Of a stretch of DNA of 64,000 nucleotides, positions 31,657-50,584 are shown in pieces (the first letter of the stretch is position 1; every line of letters begins with the position of its first letter). The stretch is taken from assembly GCF_003731635.1 (NCBI RefSeq), contig NZ_RCUA01000078.1, forward strand, positions 2,062 through 66,061, in the 5' to 3' direction. The stretch is from Marisediminitalea oceani (GTDB taxonomy: Bacteria > Pseudomonadota > Gammaproteobacteria > Enterobacterales > Alteromonadaceae). Below the pieces are notes generated by a model. The model did not search any database. It was not told the DNA's origin and saw only the letters and a list, made by a program, of their open reading frames with translations. The position numbers and the translations under genes were made by a program.

Positions 31657-31703
31657 GTAAGACGCCTATTTTCTAAAAAAGGTGGCTTTGCGTTCCCAAT
31701 TTA

Positions 31704-31873
31704 AGGGCGCTCTATTGAAATCGAACAAAGAACAAATTTTGCGCCCTAATTCAGTGTTGTCATCGTCACTGGCATTTCGCAGTATGAGGAACGACACGCC
31801 ATGGATGGCGTGGCTGGGATGAATCACAGGGACGTCCGTTGCGATGGGGCCTATTCTGTAGGCGACTCCGACA
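31704..31873 (+). ncRNA. Candidate structured RNA / dispersed element, copy A
   Basis: Related to the element at 43705-43968 on the other strand. In order: an inverted pair AGGGCGC (31704-31710) and GCGCCCT (31741-31747) around a 30-base loop; a block shared with copy B (31727-31774); and a hairpin CACGCC-ATGGAT-GGCGTG at 31795-31812 with a six-base ATGGAT loop. After these come CAGGGACG near 31827 and the shared 13-mer GGCGACTCCGACA at 31861. A weak closing stem (AACG/CGTT) may join 31790 and 31838. Only one clear ATGGAT hairpin is seen. A mobile repeat rather than an RNA gene is the alternative. Confidence 0.38.
31727..31774 (+). repeat. 48-base intergenic repeat, copy A
   Basis: Begins AAAGAACAA and ends GTCACTGGCA. 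It matches 43900-43947 on the minus strand at 45 of 48 positions by hand alignment, without gaps. The central part contains TTTTGCGCCC and CAGTGTTGTCATCGT. Confidence 0.92.
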
Positions 31874-32129
31874 ACAACCCTTAAACATCTATATTTGCTA
31901 GCTTAAACCTCTACTGTGGGAAAGTAATAAAGCCACATACCAACTAGAAAAAAACACTATGATTCGATTTTCTCATGATTTTCCTCTTATGGAACAAGTT
32001 ACATTTTTTCCATAAAAAGTGCCGTAATTCTCAGGCCTTACCCAAAGTCTTAATAAATTAAAAACTTATACTAACCATAAAGCACCAAGATCCACTATAT
32101 TTATATCTAACATCAATATTGTATTCATC

Positions 32130-42054: not shown

Positions 42055-43569
42055 ATGATTTTAGCAGAATCCCCAAGGCGTCAACGGGTAACAAAACTGG
42101 TTAACTGGGGTCACTGGTTTGCACTGGCGAATATAGTCATCGCCATAATTATTGCCTCTGTGTTTGTTATCTCTTCACCTGCGCCGGGTACGGTACTGGG
42201 TACCTTTTACCTTTTTGCAAACTGGTTCGGGCACATCAGCTTTTTAACCTTTTTTGGGTTTGTGATATTTATTCTGCCGCTGTGCTACCTGGATGTTTCC
42301 CAGCGCGTAATAAAAACCATTGCCTCCGCTGTGTCAGCGCTCGGGCTGGCGTTAATGGCCTTTGATGCGCTGCTGTATAACCGCACCGGTTTTCATTTAA
42401 GTCATAACTCCGCCTACCTGATAAAGAACGAAGCCGAAGCCCAGCTGTTTCAGTTTGGCTGGCAACAGTTTTTGTACCTGTTGCTGTTGTTTGTGGTGTG
42501 GTTTGGTTTTCAGTTAATCCTGGCTAACGCCGTCTGGAAGCGTATCGACCGCTTAATGCACTATCGTATTGGCCGCCGGGTGGTGAGCTTTTTTGTGGTG
42601 TGTTTTGTGTCTGGCCATGCTATTCACGTCTGGGCCGATGCCCAGCTCTATCAGCCAATCATTAAACAGGACAACATGTTTCCGCTGTCCTATCCGGCGA
42701 CGGCAAAAACCACTATGTCACGCTACGGTTTGCTCGATATCGAACGCTACGAACAGCGCAAGCAATTGCAGTTTGACCCGGATATTCATCAGGTTAATTA
42801 CCCGTCGGATCCGGTATATTGCGCACTGGAACCAGAAAGACAAGCGCTGTTATTGGTACAGATTGACGACGCGGATATCAGCCAGGCGATGAAAGAAGCG
42901 GACCTTCGACATATCGACAATTACTTCACCACCTCAACCACCATGGGCGGCTTAATCACCAGTACGCTTTACGGGGTTCCGGAGTTGTATCAGCAAAGTC
43001 TGAAAACCACCCAACCGGTATTGTTTGGTTTAAGTGATGCCTATGGTCTGAGCACCGAGCTATACGCCAACTCAGACGCTCAGCTTAAAGCGCAGTTTAC
43101 CGAGCTTACCTTTAGTGAGCGGTTAACCGGCTCAGCTAATATTGTGGTGGCCTTTGCCGACGGTGGTGCGCTCACCCGTTTACTGCAGCGCAGCGATTTA
43201 ACCAACACAATGGTGATGGTAGCTACGGGTTATCAGCAATCCAAAGGCACGCTGTACACCAATTTAGCGGTTAACAGCGAACTGGCCAGTACCGAAGATC
43301 TGGTCCCAACCCTGCTCAATGCAATGGGTTGTAGCGCGCCTTCACAGTTTTACTCCACCGGTCAGAATCTGTTATCACCAAAGCGTGACTGGTTAGTCAG
43401 TACCTCTGGTGAAAAGATTGTGGTGTTCTTCAACGACCAGCGTATCGACGTATTAAGTAACGGTAGTTACGATATCACGCATATCAGCAATGAGATGCGC
43501 AGCGACGATGCGCTCAATGTTGATTTACTCAGCCGGGCAATTAAACACCTCACCCGGTTCTCACAGTAA
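42055..43569 (+). CDS. yejM: YejM/PbgA-like inner-membrane protein with degenerate sulfatase domain
   Basis: A 504-residue protein with the DUF3413 membrane part (five helices, about 20-195) and a periplasmic alkaline phosphatase-like domain. E. coli YejM (PbgA, LapC) senses LPS and steers LpxC degradation through LapB. The protein is about 80 residues shorter than the E. coli one, and the periplasmic part is poorly conserved (LLLVQIDDADIS where a nucleophile strand would be, STTMGGLITSTLYGVPELY). The membrane part is well kept, which fits the view that this part carries the essential function. It follows yejL and ends in a hairpin terminator. Confidence 0.88.
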   Translation: MILAESPRRQRVTKLVNWGHWFALANIVIAIIIASVFVISSPAPGTVLGTFYLFANWFGHISFLTFFGFVIFILPLCYLDVSQRVIKTIASAVSALGLALMAFDALLYNRTGFHLSHNSAYLIKNEAEAQLFQFGWQQFLYLLLLFVVWFGFQLILANAVWKRIDRLMHYRIGRRVVSFFVVCFVSGHAIHVWADAQLYQPIIKQDNMFPLSYPATAKTTMSRYGLLDIERYEQRKQLQFDPDIHQVNYPSDPVYCALEPERQALLLVQIDDADISQAMKEADLRHIDNYFTTSTTMGGLITSTLYGVPELYQQSLKTTQPVLFGLSDAYGLSTELYANSDAQLKAQFTELTFSERLTGSANIVVAFADGGALTRLLQRSDLTNTMVMVATGYQQSKGTLYTNLAVNSELASTEDLVPTLLNAMGCSAPSQFYSTGQNLLSPKRDWLVSTSGEKIVVFFNDQRIDVLSNGSYDITHISNEMRSDDALNVDLLSRAIKHLTRFSQ

Positions 43570-43572
43570 AGC

Positions 43573-43609
43573 AAAAAAATAGCAGCCAGTTGGCTGCTAT
43601 TTTGGTTTT
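43573..43609 (+). terminator. Terminator of yejL-yejM
   Basis: The perfect hairpin AATAGCAGCC-agtt-GGCTGCTATT is preceded by an A-run and followed by TTGGTTTT. It lies a few bases after the yejM stop. Confidence 0.85.
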
Positions 43610-43704
43610 ATCATTAAGCTACCTTGTCAATGATTAGATATTATCATTGGTAGGGTTTTACCTGTGGTAATCACGGCACGCCAAGGCAGTTGTCTATACT
43701 TCTA

Positions 43705-43968
43705 TGTCGGAGTCGCCGACAGCGACCAAAGGGTGTTGTGCGACCCGGTGACCGTGAACCACTCTGGACTCCCCGCAGCCCTTAACAGTGAAAAGCATCA
43801 TCGTCCCTGACAGAACAAACCAGACCGTCAATGACAGCACATCCATGTGCCGCATCGACTGAATCCTCATCCATGATGATTCTTCTGGTTTGTTATGTCT
43901 GCCAGTGACGATGACAACACTGAAGAAGGGCGCAAAAATTGTTCTTTCTTCGAATAAAATTAAAGAGC
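43705..43968 (-). ncRNA. Candidate structured RNA with paired ATGGAT loops, copy B
   Basis: On the minus strand, in order: GCTCTTTAA (43960-43968), the 48-base block shared with copy A, then CTGGTTTGTT/AACAAACCAG (plus-strand 43814-43823 with 43885-43894), a perfect 10-bp closing stem. Inside it are two hairpins with ATGGAT loops: a 7-of-8-bp stem at 43861-43882 and GCAC-ATGGAT-GTGC at 43837-43850. CAGGGACG follows near 43803, and the shared GGCGACTCCGACA ends the element. Two ATGGAT loops in one closed junction fit the bioinformatic TwoAYGGAY motif, and GGA loops are the known CsrA/RsmA target. No promoter or terminator was found for it. Confidence 0.48.
43900..43947 (-). repeat. 48-base intergenic repeat, copy B
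   Basis: Inverted relative to copy A at 31727-31774, with three mismatches in 48 bases. It occupies the 5' part of the candidate RNA. Both copies sit between convergent genes. Confidence 0.92.
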
Positions 43969-44041
43969 AATTTTAAAATTCAGGTCTAAACCGATTTCTC
44001 CAGGCAGTGGACAGTCACGTTAAATCTGCTTATAAAACAGT

Positions 44042-44932
44042 TTAGTCCCTGGCAAACAAATTAAAGATACTTGAAAAGTCTTTATCGGCGTTGTTGCTCT
44101 GCCCCTGATGCAGTCGATACAGCGCCTGCGCCGCAGAGGCCATAGGTGTAGCTGCGCCAACCTGTGCAGCGGTATCCATGGCTAGGGTCAGATCTTTATT
44201 CATCAGTTTAACCATAAAGCCGCCCTGATAATCATTGCTAGATGGCACGTTGTCCATCACACCCGGGCAAGGGTTGTATTTTTGTAATGTCCAGTTGCAG
44301 CCCGAGCTTTGCAGCATAATGTCTGACATCACTTTGGGGTCGAGGCCATTAGCAATGGCCAGTTGCAGTGCTTCGGACGTGCCTGCCATCAGGACCGACA
44401 ACAACATATTGTTGCAGACTTTGGCAATTTGCCCGGCCCCCAGATCACCGGCTCTGAACAGGTTTGCCCCCATCATCGACAGCACCGGCCTGGCCCGTTC
44501 AACATCCGCTTCCTTACAGCCCATAATAAACGTCAGCGTGCCGGCAGCTGCACCGCCAACGCCACCGGACACCGGCGCATCAATAAAGGCAATGCCTGCC
44601 TGCTTAGCCTGTTCTCCCACTGCGATTGCGCTTTGCGCATCAATGGTACTGCAGTCGATCAGCAACGCGCTTTTATCAACATGAGCCAGCAAACCGTCTT
44701 CGCCCAGATAAAGGGATTTAACATGGGCTGCGGCGGGTAACATGGTTACCACTATATCAGCGCCAGCTACCGCTTCCTGCGGTGATCCTGCTTTGTGTGC
44801 TCCGGCTGCTACCAATGCATCAACTGCTTCCGGCATCAGATCGAACACCGTAACATGCTGATTATGTTTTAACAGGTTGCGGGCCATAGGCCCACCCATA
44901 TTACCCAATCCGATAAAGGCAATTTGTGTCAT
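44042..44932 (-). CDS. mmsB: 3-hydroxyisobutyrate dehydrogenase
   Basis: A 296-residue NAD-dependent dehydrogenase that oxidises 3-hydroxyisobutyrate to methylmalonate semialdehyde in valine breakdown. The Rossmann start is IAFIGLGNMGGPMA. The substrate motif is DAPVSGGVGGAAAGTL (about 120-135), and the catalytic lysine is in GAGQIAKVCNN (about 170). The C-terminal part ends DFSSIFNL as is usual. It is the last gene of the operon, with only two bases after the hydrolase gene stop. A second related enzyme is encoded at 50581. Confidence 0.93.
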   Translation of the reverse strand: MTQIAFIGLGNMGGPMARNLLKHNQHVTVFDLMPEAVDALVAAGAHKAGSPQEAVAGADIVVTMLPAAAHVKSLYLGEDGLLAHVDKSALLIDCSTIDAQSAIAVGEQAKQAGIAFIDAPVSGGVGGAAAGTLTFIMGCKEADVERARPVLSMMGANLFRAGDLGAGQIAKVCNNMLLSVLMAGTSEALQLAIANGLDPKVMSDIMLQSSGCNWTLQKYNPCPGVMDNVPSSNDYQGGFMVKLMNKDLTLAMDTAAQVGAATPMASAAQALYRLHQGQSNNADKDFSSIFNLFARD

Positions 44933-48784: not shown

Positions 48785-48925
48785 GAGGCGTGAAAGCTGC
48801 GTTAACAATGTAAATAAATTGTGACATTGTTAGTCATAACCATACCTATTATTGAATTTACGCTTTTATTTTAGGTCCCTGCTGATATGCTTAACACAGG
48901 TAACACTGACGAACGCGGTAGATGA

Positions 48926-50584
48926 ATGGTGCAAAAAATCAGAGTCGCAATTATCGAAGATAATGCGACGGCCCGGGCCACCATTCGTAGCCATCTGATT
49001 ACCATGGGTAATTTGGAGGTGGCGAGTTTTAGCACCGGCAGTGAGTTAAAAAACGTATTGCGCAAGCAGCATTTCGAACTGCTAATTTTTGATTTTCATC
49101 TTGGCCAGCGCCGTAACGGGGTTGAATGGGTGCAAGCCCTGCGACAGGCTGATTTTATCCGCCCGAGTACCGGCATCATTTTTCTCACCGCCGACAGAAT
49201 GCCTCAGACCATTGGCCAGATTATCGACATTCACCCCGACCTGCTGTTACTCAAGCCCTACACCATCAATTCACTGCAACGCGGACTGAATCATTATCTT
49301 GAGTATCGCGAGCAAGCCAGTAAAGCGCTGATGTACCTTGATGATGGTTACTGCGATCGGGCTATTAGTCAGGTCCGGCAACAACTTCAGGCACCGCTGT
49401 CGGCCAGACTGCGCTCCGACCTGGAAAAACTTCAGGCCAGGCTGCTATTACAGGTTCATCAATATACCGAGGCGCTCGATATTTATCAGCGGGTGCTACA
49501 ACAATCCGATAAGGTACTTTGGGCTCAGTGGGGCAAATTAAAATGTCAGTTTTTAATGGGTAACTGGCCGGACTGCCAGGAATCACTGGATGCCATGCTC
49601 GATACCCTGCTGACCCGCGACAAAGCCTTTGAATGGCTGGCGTGTTTGTCTTTTGAGCAAGCGGCTTATGAGAAAACCGAATACTACCTGGATCACATTC
49701 AGGACAGTGAACTCAGCCTGCCGGCTACCCGGCTGAAAACGATGACCTACCAGAAGCAAAACCGGGTCGTAGAAAGTATCGATTTACTGCAAAAAAAACG
49801 TGAATATAACCGCTCTACCAAAGAGCGCTTCGACGAGTTCACCTTTGAACTGGCCGAATTTTACCTGAGCATTGCCCAAAATAGTCCGATGAATAACCGT
49901 GGTGAGAGTCTCACCCAGGCCAGAAAACTAGCCGGTGTAGCGGCACGCAGCCAGGGCGACTCACTGGTCAGACAGCGCCACGATTATTTACTGGCCTACA
50001 GCTATGTGCTGGAAGATCAGGGTGAAAAAGCCAGAAGTCTCACTCAACGTGAACACATGCAGGTATTTAATCGCAGTTCTGCAAACACGTTAATTACAGC
50101 TGCAAGAGTGTTTAGTGCCCTGGGCAATGAAACTCAGGCGTTGTATTTACTTGATATGGCAAAAGTAAAAAGTGAGTTGGGAGAAATGCCGGCAGAACAG
50201 CAAACGCTGCAAAGCAGGTTAATTAATGCAGAAAAAGAATCTGGCCTGGCCCACAGCCGTGCCGATGTCTTTAACGAACAGGGGCAGCAATTGTTCGTAA
50301 AAGAAGCGTATCAGGAAGCGCTTGCCGCGTTCTATCATGCCCTTCAGCTACGCCCGTCATTGCCGGCGATTGCTCTCAACATGTTGCAAACACTGCTGGT
50401 AGAACAACAAAGTAGCTACCGCAGTGTACTGCTGAATGATTTGGTTCAGCAAATTCATCACAGTGAACTGTCTGAAACTAACCAGCAGCGTTTTGCCAGA
50501 TTACAAAAGAAATACCCGCAAATTAATGAGGTATTGATGGCAGCAACTCACGCCAGCGCCGCCAACCCGGTAACCCCGACTTAA
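48926..50584 (+). CDS. Response regulator with TPR repeats, paralogue of the gene at 26648
   Basis: A 552-residue protein with a receiver domain (about 4-125) and helical repeats behind it. Receiver residues: IIEDN, phosphoacceptor in LLIFDFHLG, the S/T position in FLTADR and the lysine in LLLKPYT. The phosphorylation site is intact. The last repeat, QGQQLFVKEAYQEALAAFYHALQL, matches the end of the 26648 protein in place and pattern. It has no DNA-binding domain. The upstream space is shared with the valine operon, which is divergent. The ATG has only a weak ribosome site. Its stop touches that of the convergent oxidoreductase gene. Confidence 0.85.
   Translation: MVQKIRVAIIEDNATARATIRSHLITMGNLEVASFSTGSELKNVLRKQHFELLIFDFHLGQRRNGVEWVQALRQADFIRPSTGIIFLTADRMPQTIGQIIDIHPDLLLLKPYTINSLQRGLNHYLEYREQASKALMYLDDGYCDRAISQVRQQLQAPLSARLRSDLEKLQARLLLQVHQYTEALDIYQRVLQQSDKVLWAQWGKLKCQFLMGNWPDCQESLDAMLDTLLTRDKAFEWLACLSFEQAAYEKTEYYLDHIQDSELSLPATRLKTMTYQKQNRVVESIDLLQKKREYNRSTKERFDEFTFELAEFYLSIAQNSPMNNRGESLTQARKLAGVAARSQGDSLVRQRHDYLLAYSYVLEDQGEKARSLTQREHMQVFNRSSANTLITAARVFSALGNETQALYLLDMAKVKSELGEMPAEQQTLQSRLINAEKESGLAHSRADVFNEQGQQLFVKEAYQEALAAFYHALQLRPSLPAIALNMLQTLLVEQQSSYRSVLLNDLVQQIHHSELSETNQQRFARLQKKYPQINEVLMAATHASAANPVTPT

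Follow-up and report, generated by a model that had tools for sequence, protein, structure and literature searches.

What is the strongly structured DNA that lies between a 3-hydroxyisobutyrate dehydrogenase gene and a convergent YejM-like gene in the 64,000-nt stretch analyzed here (hereafter, the window)? From its hairpins, it had been predicted as a possible intergenic regulatory or protein-sponge RNA of the TwoAYGGAY type. According to the analysis presented below, the feature is probably a non-autonomous element of the IS200/IS605 type, about 0.4 kb in length, which carries a TwoAYGGAY core and would serve as a CsrA-type RNA in the 3′ UTR of its host gene.

On the minus strand, positions 43894–43885 (AACAAACCAG) and 43823–43814 (CTGGTTTGTT) formed a perfect 10-bp closing stem, inside which two hairpins with ATGGAT loops were located. 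The stem, both hairpins and the AGGGAC outside the stem were thus found as described in the original prediction, and the fold was better than that of shuffled sequences: the free energy of 43705–43968(−) was −109.7 kcal/mol (z −5.80), a value reached by none of the 200 shuffles, and that of the 92-nt core (43811–43902) on the minus strand was −39.5 kcal/mol (z −5.04). Since the plus strand of the core was likewise stable in the same fold test (z −4.44), the choice of strand cannot be made by energy alone. The Rfam TwoAYGGAY covariance model (RF01731), named earlier as a check, matched the locus over its cut-off, though marginally, with the window copy clearing the gathering score of 43 by half a bit, and our own covariance model, built with the window sequence included, gave 113.2 bits on the core. 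The features of the locus are collected in Table 1; the inserted part of the 438-nt segment, as judged by eye, extended from about 43604 to 44018, and the element came after the dehydrogenase stop codon, in the same orientation as that gene.

Table 1. Features of the element and its surroundings in the window.
Feature	Position	Strand	Basis or score
Convergent downstream gene, YejM-like	42055..43569	+	NF038282 (NCBIfam), 227.4 bits, under the model cut-off of 825
Bidirectional intrinsic terminator on the 3′ side of the element	43576..43603	−	Terminator scan
438-nt segment from the dehydrogenase stop codon to the terminator	43604..44041	−	About 20 bp instead in two sister genomes
Part common to other copies of the dispersed element	43680..43959	−	BLAST, query 102-381 or 101-356; copies in own genome, G002, G023 and G034
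Second module: GGGGAGTCCAGAG...CCCTTTGG hairpin and GTCGGCGACTCCGAC	43705..43774	−	Sequence, copies
Rfam TwoAYGGAY (RF01731) match	43783..43928	−	43.5 bits, E 0.0011
AGGGAC outside the closing stem	43803..43808	−	Sequence
Core: closing stem (43885-43894/43814-43823) with two ATGGAT-loop hairpins	43811..43902	−	Fold, pair counts
Upstream gene, 3-hydroxyisobutyrate dehydrogenase	44042..44932	−	TIGR01692 (NCBIfam), 408.3 bits, cut-off 291.6
Second, internally shortened variant copy	31657..31975	+	BLAST part match, sequence; end coordinate by eye

The TwoAYGGAY sequence is a dispersed element rather than a single-locus RNA gene. In the own genome of the window, RF01731 gave seven matches at E 10 or better, with five over the cut-off and 50.9 bits for the best-scoring copy; one of the seven (L007) was not recovered when the window sequence served as the BLAST query, and it may not be a copy of the element. 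BLAST with a 521-base query revealed matches in 10 of the 60 genomes, the own genome included, with longer matches to the element itself confined to the own genome, G002, G023 and G034, and only short matches of 25–48 bases in the other six, lying at the terminator in four of them. In the genus, RF01731 was matched at E 1e-3 in 15 of the 59 genomes, the own genome included (8 of 59 over the cut-off), with 12 matches in G009; G023 and G034 had none under the stricter filters of this survey, yet copies were found in both by BLAST. In the order sample, with at most six candidates scored per genome, 84 of the 394 genomes had matches at E 1e-4 (72 over the cut-off; best score 81.6 bits), and in the class sample, matches were found in 19 of the 369 genomes (16 over the cut-off), several of which contained more than one copy.

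The second copy present in the window directly follows the 6-phosphofructokinase gene (pfkA). It retains one ATGGAT hairpin (31795–31812) and CACAGGGACG, with a partial BLAST match at C76:33782-33835 and a fold z of −3.31, and in G034 a longer copy occupies the corresponding site behind the phosphofructokinase gene; the shortening in the window was possibly due to loss of the sequence between short CACTGGCA/CAGTGGCA-like repeats. In G009, TwoAYGGAY copies formed arrays (loci L047–L050) with a spacing of about 430–630 bp, and REP-like GGGATCTCC...GGGACGACG repeats were present between the array copies in L047 and L048.

The sites occupied by the element were polymorphic among related genomes. 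At the window site, the segment was absent in two sister genomes (G023:C57 and G034:C27), in which the flanks were 93–94% identical on the 1043-2001 side and 90–94% identical on the yejM side. For the other seven own copies, the flanks were searched for in eight genomes and then aligned, and at least one sister with an empty site, as judged by alignment or by spacing, was found for seven of the eight own sites tested. Empty sites corresponded to L018 (G023, G034 and G078; G002 by spacing), L023 (G071, G078 and G061), L026 (G023), L032 (G071, G061, G078 and G023; G034 and G002 by spacing), L035 (G061 and G023; G002 by spacing) and L037 (G061 and G034). The empty-site junctions were clean only at L018, L026 and L032; in the empty sites for L023, L035, L037 and the window copy, a short different sequence stood in place of the element. 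At the L029 site, the flanks were 411–473 bp apart in six relatives versus 530 bp in the own genome. Filled orthologues, some of them recognized by spacing only, were found for L018 (G061 and G071), L023 (G023), L026 (G078), L035 (G071 and G078) and L037 (G078). No long target duplication was seen in the alignments examined, which included the L032 block in part. The empty sites could instead be deletions. At L035 and L037, the filled orthologue of G078 differed from the own copy by an exchanged central module, with the outer parts in agreement. This module difference at orthologous sites was observed between L035/L253 and L257 and between L037 and L256; to judge from the sequences, it looks as if the copies exchange modules at orthologous sites.

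A candidate carrier was found in the sister genomes. Five copies of an IS200 transposon were present in G061, and their TnpA scored 134.7 bits with Y1_Tnp and 151.3 bits with the NCBIfam IS200/IS605 model (cut-off 55). This TnpA was identical in G081 (one copy) and 94–96% identical in G068 (four copies), a 27-residue piece of it lay at a contig end in G034, and no match to it was found in the own genome. The left end of the G061 transposon matched 14 of the 25 element copies (32–67 bases, 79–97%) and the right end 7 of the 25 (70–75 bases, 83–93%), some of these copies being cut by contig ends. Among the four IS copies whose right-end junctions were read, those of L349, L351 and L366 led into an A-tract and then a terminator-like hairpin, and that of L275 into an A-tract without a clear hairpin. 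The comparison indicates that the sister copies consist of IS200 ends, with the TwoAYGGAY core and the second hairpin module in place of the transposase gene. Ends shared with the intact IS200 were observed in the better-preserved copies. In the window copy, also one of the 25, the ends had no match to the IS200 ends at E 1e-3, so that its probable membership is based on its core, its position and the empty site; its own ends are worn or different, and we infer their origin.

A RAYT/REP origin was rejected. At 1e-5, a single Y1 transposase was detected in the own genome (C28; 238 aa, with a RAYT-like reading), and it was not among the five loci matched when four element copies were compared with 15 Y1 loci; all five were G061 IS200 copies. 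The Y1 check in other families took in seven genomes, of which G193, G177 and G184, with several TwoAYGGAY copies each, had no Y1 transposase at 1e-5; thus, the TwoAYGGAY core has other carriers as well. Comparison of the TwoAYGGAY loci of G166, G259, G712 and G602 with 17 Y1 loci revealed many short matches of G166 to two of its Y1 loci, one weak match each for G712 and G602, and none for G259.

Non-autonomous elements of the IS200/IS605 family (MITEs and PATEs) share with the element described here the absence of a transposase gene, the terminal hairpins, insertion with no long target duplication seen, and an intact relative, here in sister genomes, with ends matching those of the sister copies. 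Unlike them, this element carries a covarying CsrA-type RNA core and is often located beside terminators.

The position of the copies relative to genes was largely uniform within the genus. After removal of two duplicates from 26 rows, 21 of the 24 distinct genus copies were situated behind a gene in sense orientation, the exceptions being L020, L024 and L025. A separate terminator-like hairpin was found downstream, at a distance of 250–520 nt from the beginning of the match, in 8 of the 20 distinct copies with enough sequence, whereas the control, 270-nt pieces drawn at random from the window and mostly coding, yielded such hairpins in 17 of 400; in a further 4 of the 20, the script matched the right-end hairpin of the element itself, and 8 of the 20 had no terminator-like site. 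The sense-placement rule is looser outside the genus: for 49 matches from many genera, classified by a rough ORF rule, the neighbours were convergent in 22 cases, both antisense in 12, both sense in 6, divergent in 6 and incomplete in 3.

Alignment of homologues, also called for with the original prediction, revealed compensating changes in the stems. In a sequence-only alignment of 20 genus copies, 97.6% of the cells were paired (96.4 in shuffles), two-sided changes were present in 6 of the 49 pairs (shuffle mean 2.8; 0 of 500 as high), and the pair-type count was reached by 5 of the 500 shuffles; the outer helix pair 48–134 was broken in 10 of the 20 copies. The parts of the structure differed in this respect. 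Two pairs of the 10-bp stem had two-sided changes within the genus (U-A/C-G, and A-U/G-C with G-U), and the stem covaried across genera as well, whereas hairpin 1, which hardly varies in the genus, had such changes in none of its eight pairs, so that its covariation derives from the cross-genus set. The latter comprised 71 matches (65 distinct) from part of 93 sources, since sources without a model match were dropped; among the RF01731-derived sources, L304–L310 had no match with the R1 model. In this set, which was both found by and fitted to a model built from GGA-bearing copies and therefore favours conserved loops and pairs, 95.6% of the cells were paired, and two-sided changes were found in 35 of the 36 pairs (shuffle mean 29.1; 0 of 500 as high). 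The fitting leans towards pairing, but the controls were far lower, with a covariation score of 0.736 for the set, 0.172 for shuffles and at most 0.105 for slid versions. Thus, the pair of AYGGAY-loop hairpins inside a covarying closing stem, by which TwoAYGGAY is recognized, was found here. On the element strand, G·T cells outnumbered A·C cells by 44:4 in the sequence-only alignment, where 16 of the 44 represent one inherited pair, and by 78:21 in the fitted alignment, and this strand asymmetry points to selection on one folded strand, either RNA or single-stranded DNA.

The loops read A-N-GGA-U, and the base preceding GGA varied. The GGA letters were almost invariant (64 of 64 rows in loop 1 and, letter by letter, 64–65 of 65 rows in loop 2), though the search model, built on GGA-bearing copies, favours this. 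In the reported CsrA SELEX consensus, RUACARGGAUGU, ACA and GGA were fully conserved (PMC4347634). CANGGAYG was present in 65 of the 65 rows and the exact ACARGGATGT in 22 of the 65, with the window copy reading ACATGGATGT, one letter off the latter; the loops therefore fit the consensus, and the earlier interpretation of GGA in the loops as a putative CsrA-type site is supported.

These data bear on whether the fold acts as RNA at all. A purely DNA-level palindromic parasite of the REP/MITE kind, whose hairpins would function in transposition or replication while the DNA is single-stranded and whose likeness to CsrA sites would be incidental, would agree with the insertion polymorphism and the hairpin ends. 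IS200/IS605 elements are described as moving as single strands and as having subterminal structures (PMC6006769), and folding of single-stranded DNA would also yield covariation and an excess of G·T. However, the intact G061 IS200 is without the TwoAYGGAY core, which is therefore not needed for IS200 mobility, and the loop letters are better conserved than most stem letters, which is not required by folding alone, though the search model favours this as well; such a parasite is regarded as unlikely. The position behind stop codons and the very stable fold would also suit a BIME/REP-type element for stability or termination in the 3′ UTR, acting on mRNA decay without CsrA, but near-invariant GGA loops with a free preceding base are unneeded for stability, and this explanation appears quite improbable.

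The own genome contains a csrA gene and three CsrB-like loci on contig C13 (G000:C13:45708-46091, 48800-49144 and 64759-65101; L266 and L267), which scored 42.5–49.7 bits, under the Rfam CsrB cut-off of 71, with 21–25 GGA each; two of the three are located about 3 kb apart. No CsrB Rfam match was found within the window. By these sequence features, the three C13 loci are the likelier CsrA-sponge RNAs of the genome. RF01731 stands in Rfam clan CL00106, which we take to be the clan of CsrA-binding RNAs. A stand-alone sponge sRNA gene of the CsrB/RsmZ kind at the window locus, with its own promoter and the terminator at 43576–43603, would be in line with this clan, with the CsrA binding proposed for TwoAYGGAY (PMC4333381), with the terminator and with the six GGA in 437 nt of the element, but it was dropped as the main reading and is considered very doubtful, because the three CsrB-like loci lie elsewhere, two close relatives lack the segment at this site, and the sigma-70 promoter scan of the locus gave a single site, on the plus strand and not above shuffles.

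Thus, the regulatory or sponge RNA reading of the original prediction holds as regards the TwoAYGGAY match, the covarying stems and the GGA loops, but the locus is a dispersed insertion and not a single-locus intergenic RNA; the repeat nature, the empty sites, the link to IS200 through the sister copies and the mostly 3′ UTR position had escaped it. For the preferred explanation, a non-autonomous IS200/IS605-type element with a TwoAYGGAY core, the following mechanism is proposed. The transposase gene would have been replaced by the structured core, the TwoAYGGAY RNA, and the element would be inserted as single-stranded DNA, very probably by an IS200 TnpA acting in trans. Insertions would often occur on the A-tract side of intrinsic terminators, and most copies would therefore come to lie in sense orientation behind a stop codon. 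The element would then be transcribed as the 3′ UTR of the host gene (here, the hydroxyisobutyrate dehydrogenase gene), and the two GGA hairpins of that RNA would bind a CsrA dimer, whereby CsrA would be tethered or titrated and the decay of the host mRNA possibly affected.

Several known systems resemble this element in part. TwoAYGGAY (RF01731) shares the two AYGGAY-loop hairpins in a closing stem and a score over the gathering cut-off, but in the sources consulted it is a candidate RNA, whereas here it forms the core of a dispersed insertion with a mostly 3′ UTR position. A 2010 listing described it as a probable RNA that is not cis-regulatory (PMC2864571), its function was still called unknown in 2014 (PMC4333381), and two added covarying pairs are reported for it in Rfam 15 (PMC11701678). 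No description of its mobility or repeat nature was found in the literature searched, which covered few subscription papers. The sponge RNAs CsrB/CsrC and RsmX/Y/Z likewise have GGA in hairpin loops, but each copy of the element has few sites, and numerous copies are located behind genes. The RrA/RrB/RrF RNAs of the E. coli rRNA operons likewise interact with CsrA and are made at the end of another transcript, close to terminators; they differ in lying between two rRNA-operon terminators, and the abstract makes no mention of mobility (PMC8144298). Regulatory RNA from an IS200 is known in the 5′tnpA sRNA of Salmonella, which corresponds to the 5′ portion of the tnpA transcript and not to a core replacing tnpA, and among its partners worth testing the authors named CsrA (PMC12594629).

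Hairpins of the GGGAGTCCAGAGGG...CCCTCTGG type, similar to the second module at 43705–43774, were observed in at least 117 stretches elsewhere (L067–L183), with hosts in Clostridia, Desulfovibrionales (Desulfovibrio), Chloroflexi, Puniceicoccales and others; no TwoAYGGAY core was seen by eye in the second-module-like loci L067–L109. In another family (L184–L201), TwoAYGGAY was mostly followed by a different partner module, a TTGGTTACTTTTCTTTTGCTG...AAAGAAAAGTAAC-like palindrome with CGCC...GGCG, and some neighbouring copies were in opposite orientations (L186, L187 and L190).

The RNA motif itself is known, and its score at this locus is marginal; what is new is that its relatives are connected with an IS200-type transposon. 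Tentatively, RF01731 may be largely a mobile cargo handed from one carrier to another, of the IS200 type here and of other types elsewhere, within a mobile family that spreads CsrA-binding hairpins to gammaproteobacterial 3′ UTRs and could thereby wire CsrA titration or 3′-UTR control to new genes. The view of TwoAYGGAY as repeated cargo behind genes would account for its patchy distribution, provides natural pairs in which one gene occurs both with the element and without it, and makes the CsrA hypothesis testable copy by copy. If this is true, a global RNA regulator would acquire new binding sites from mobile DNA.
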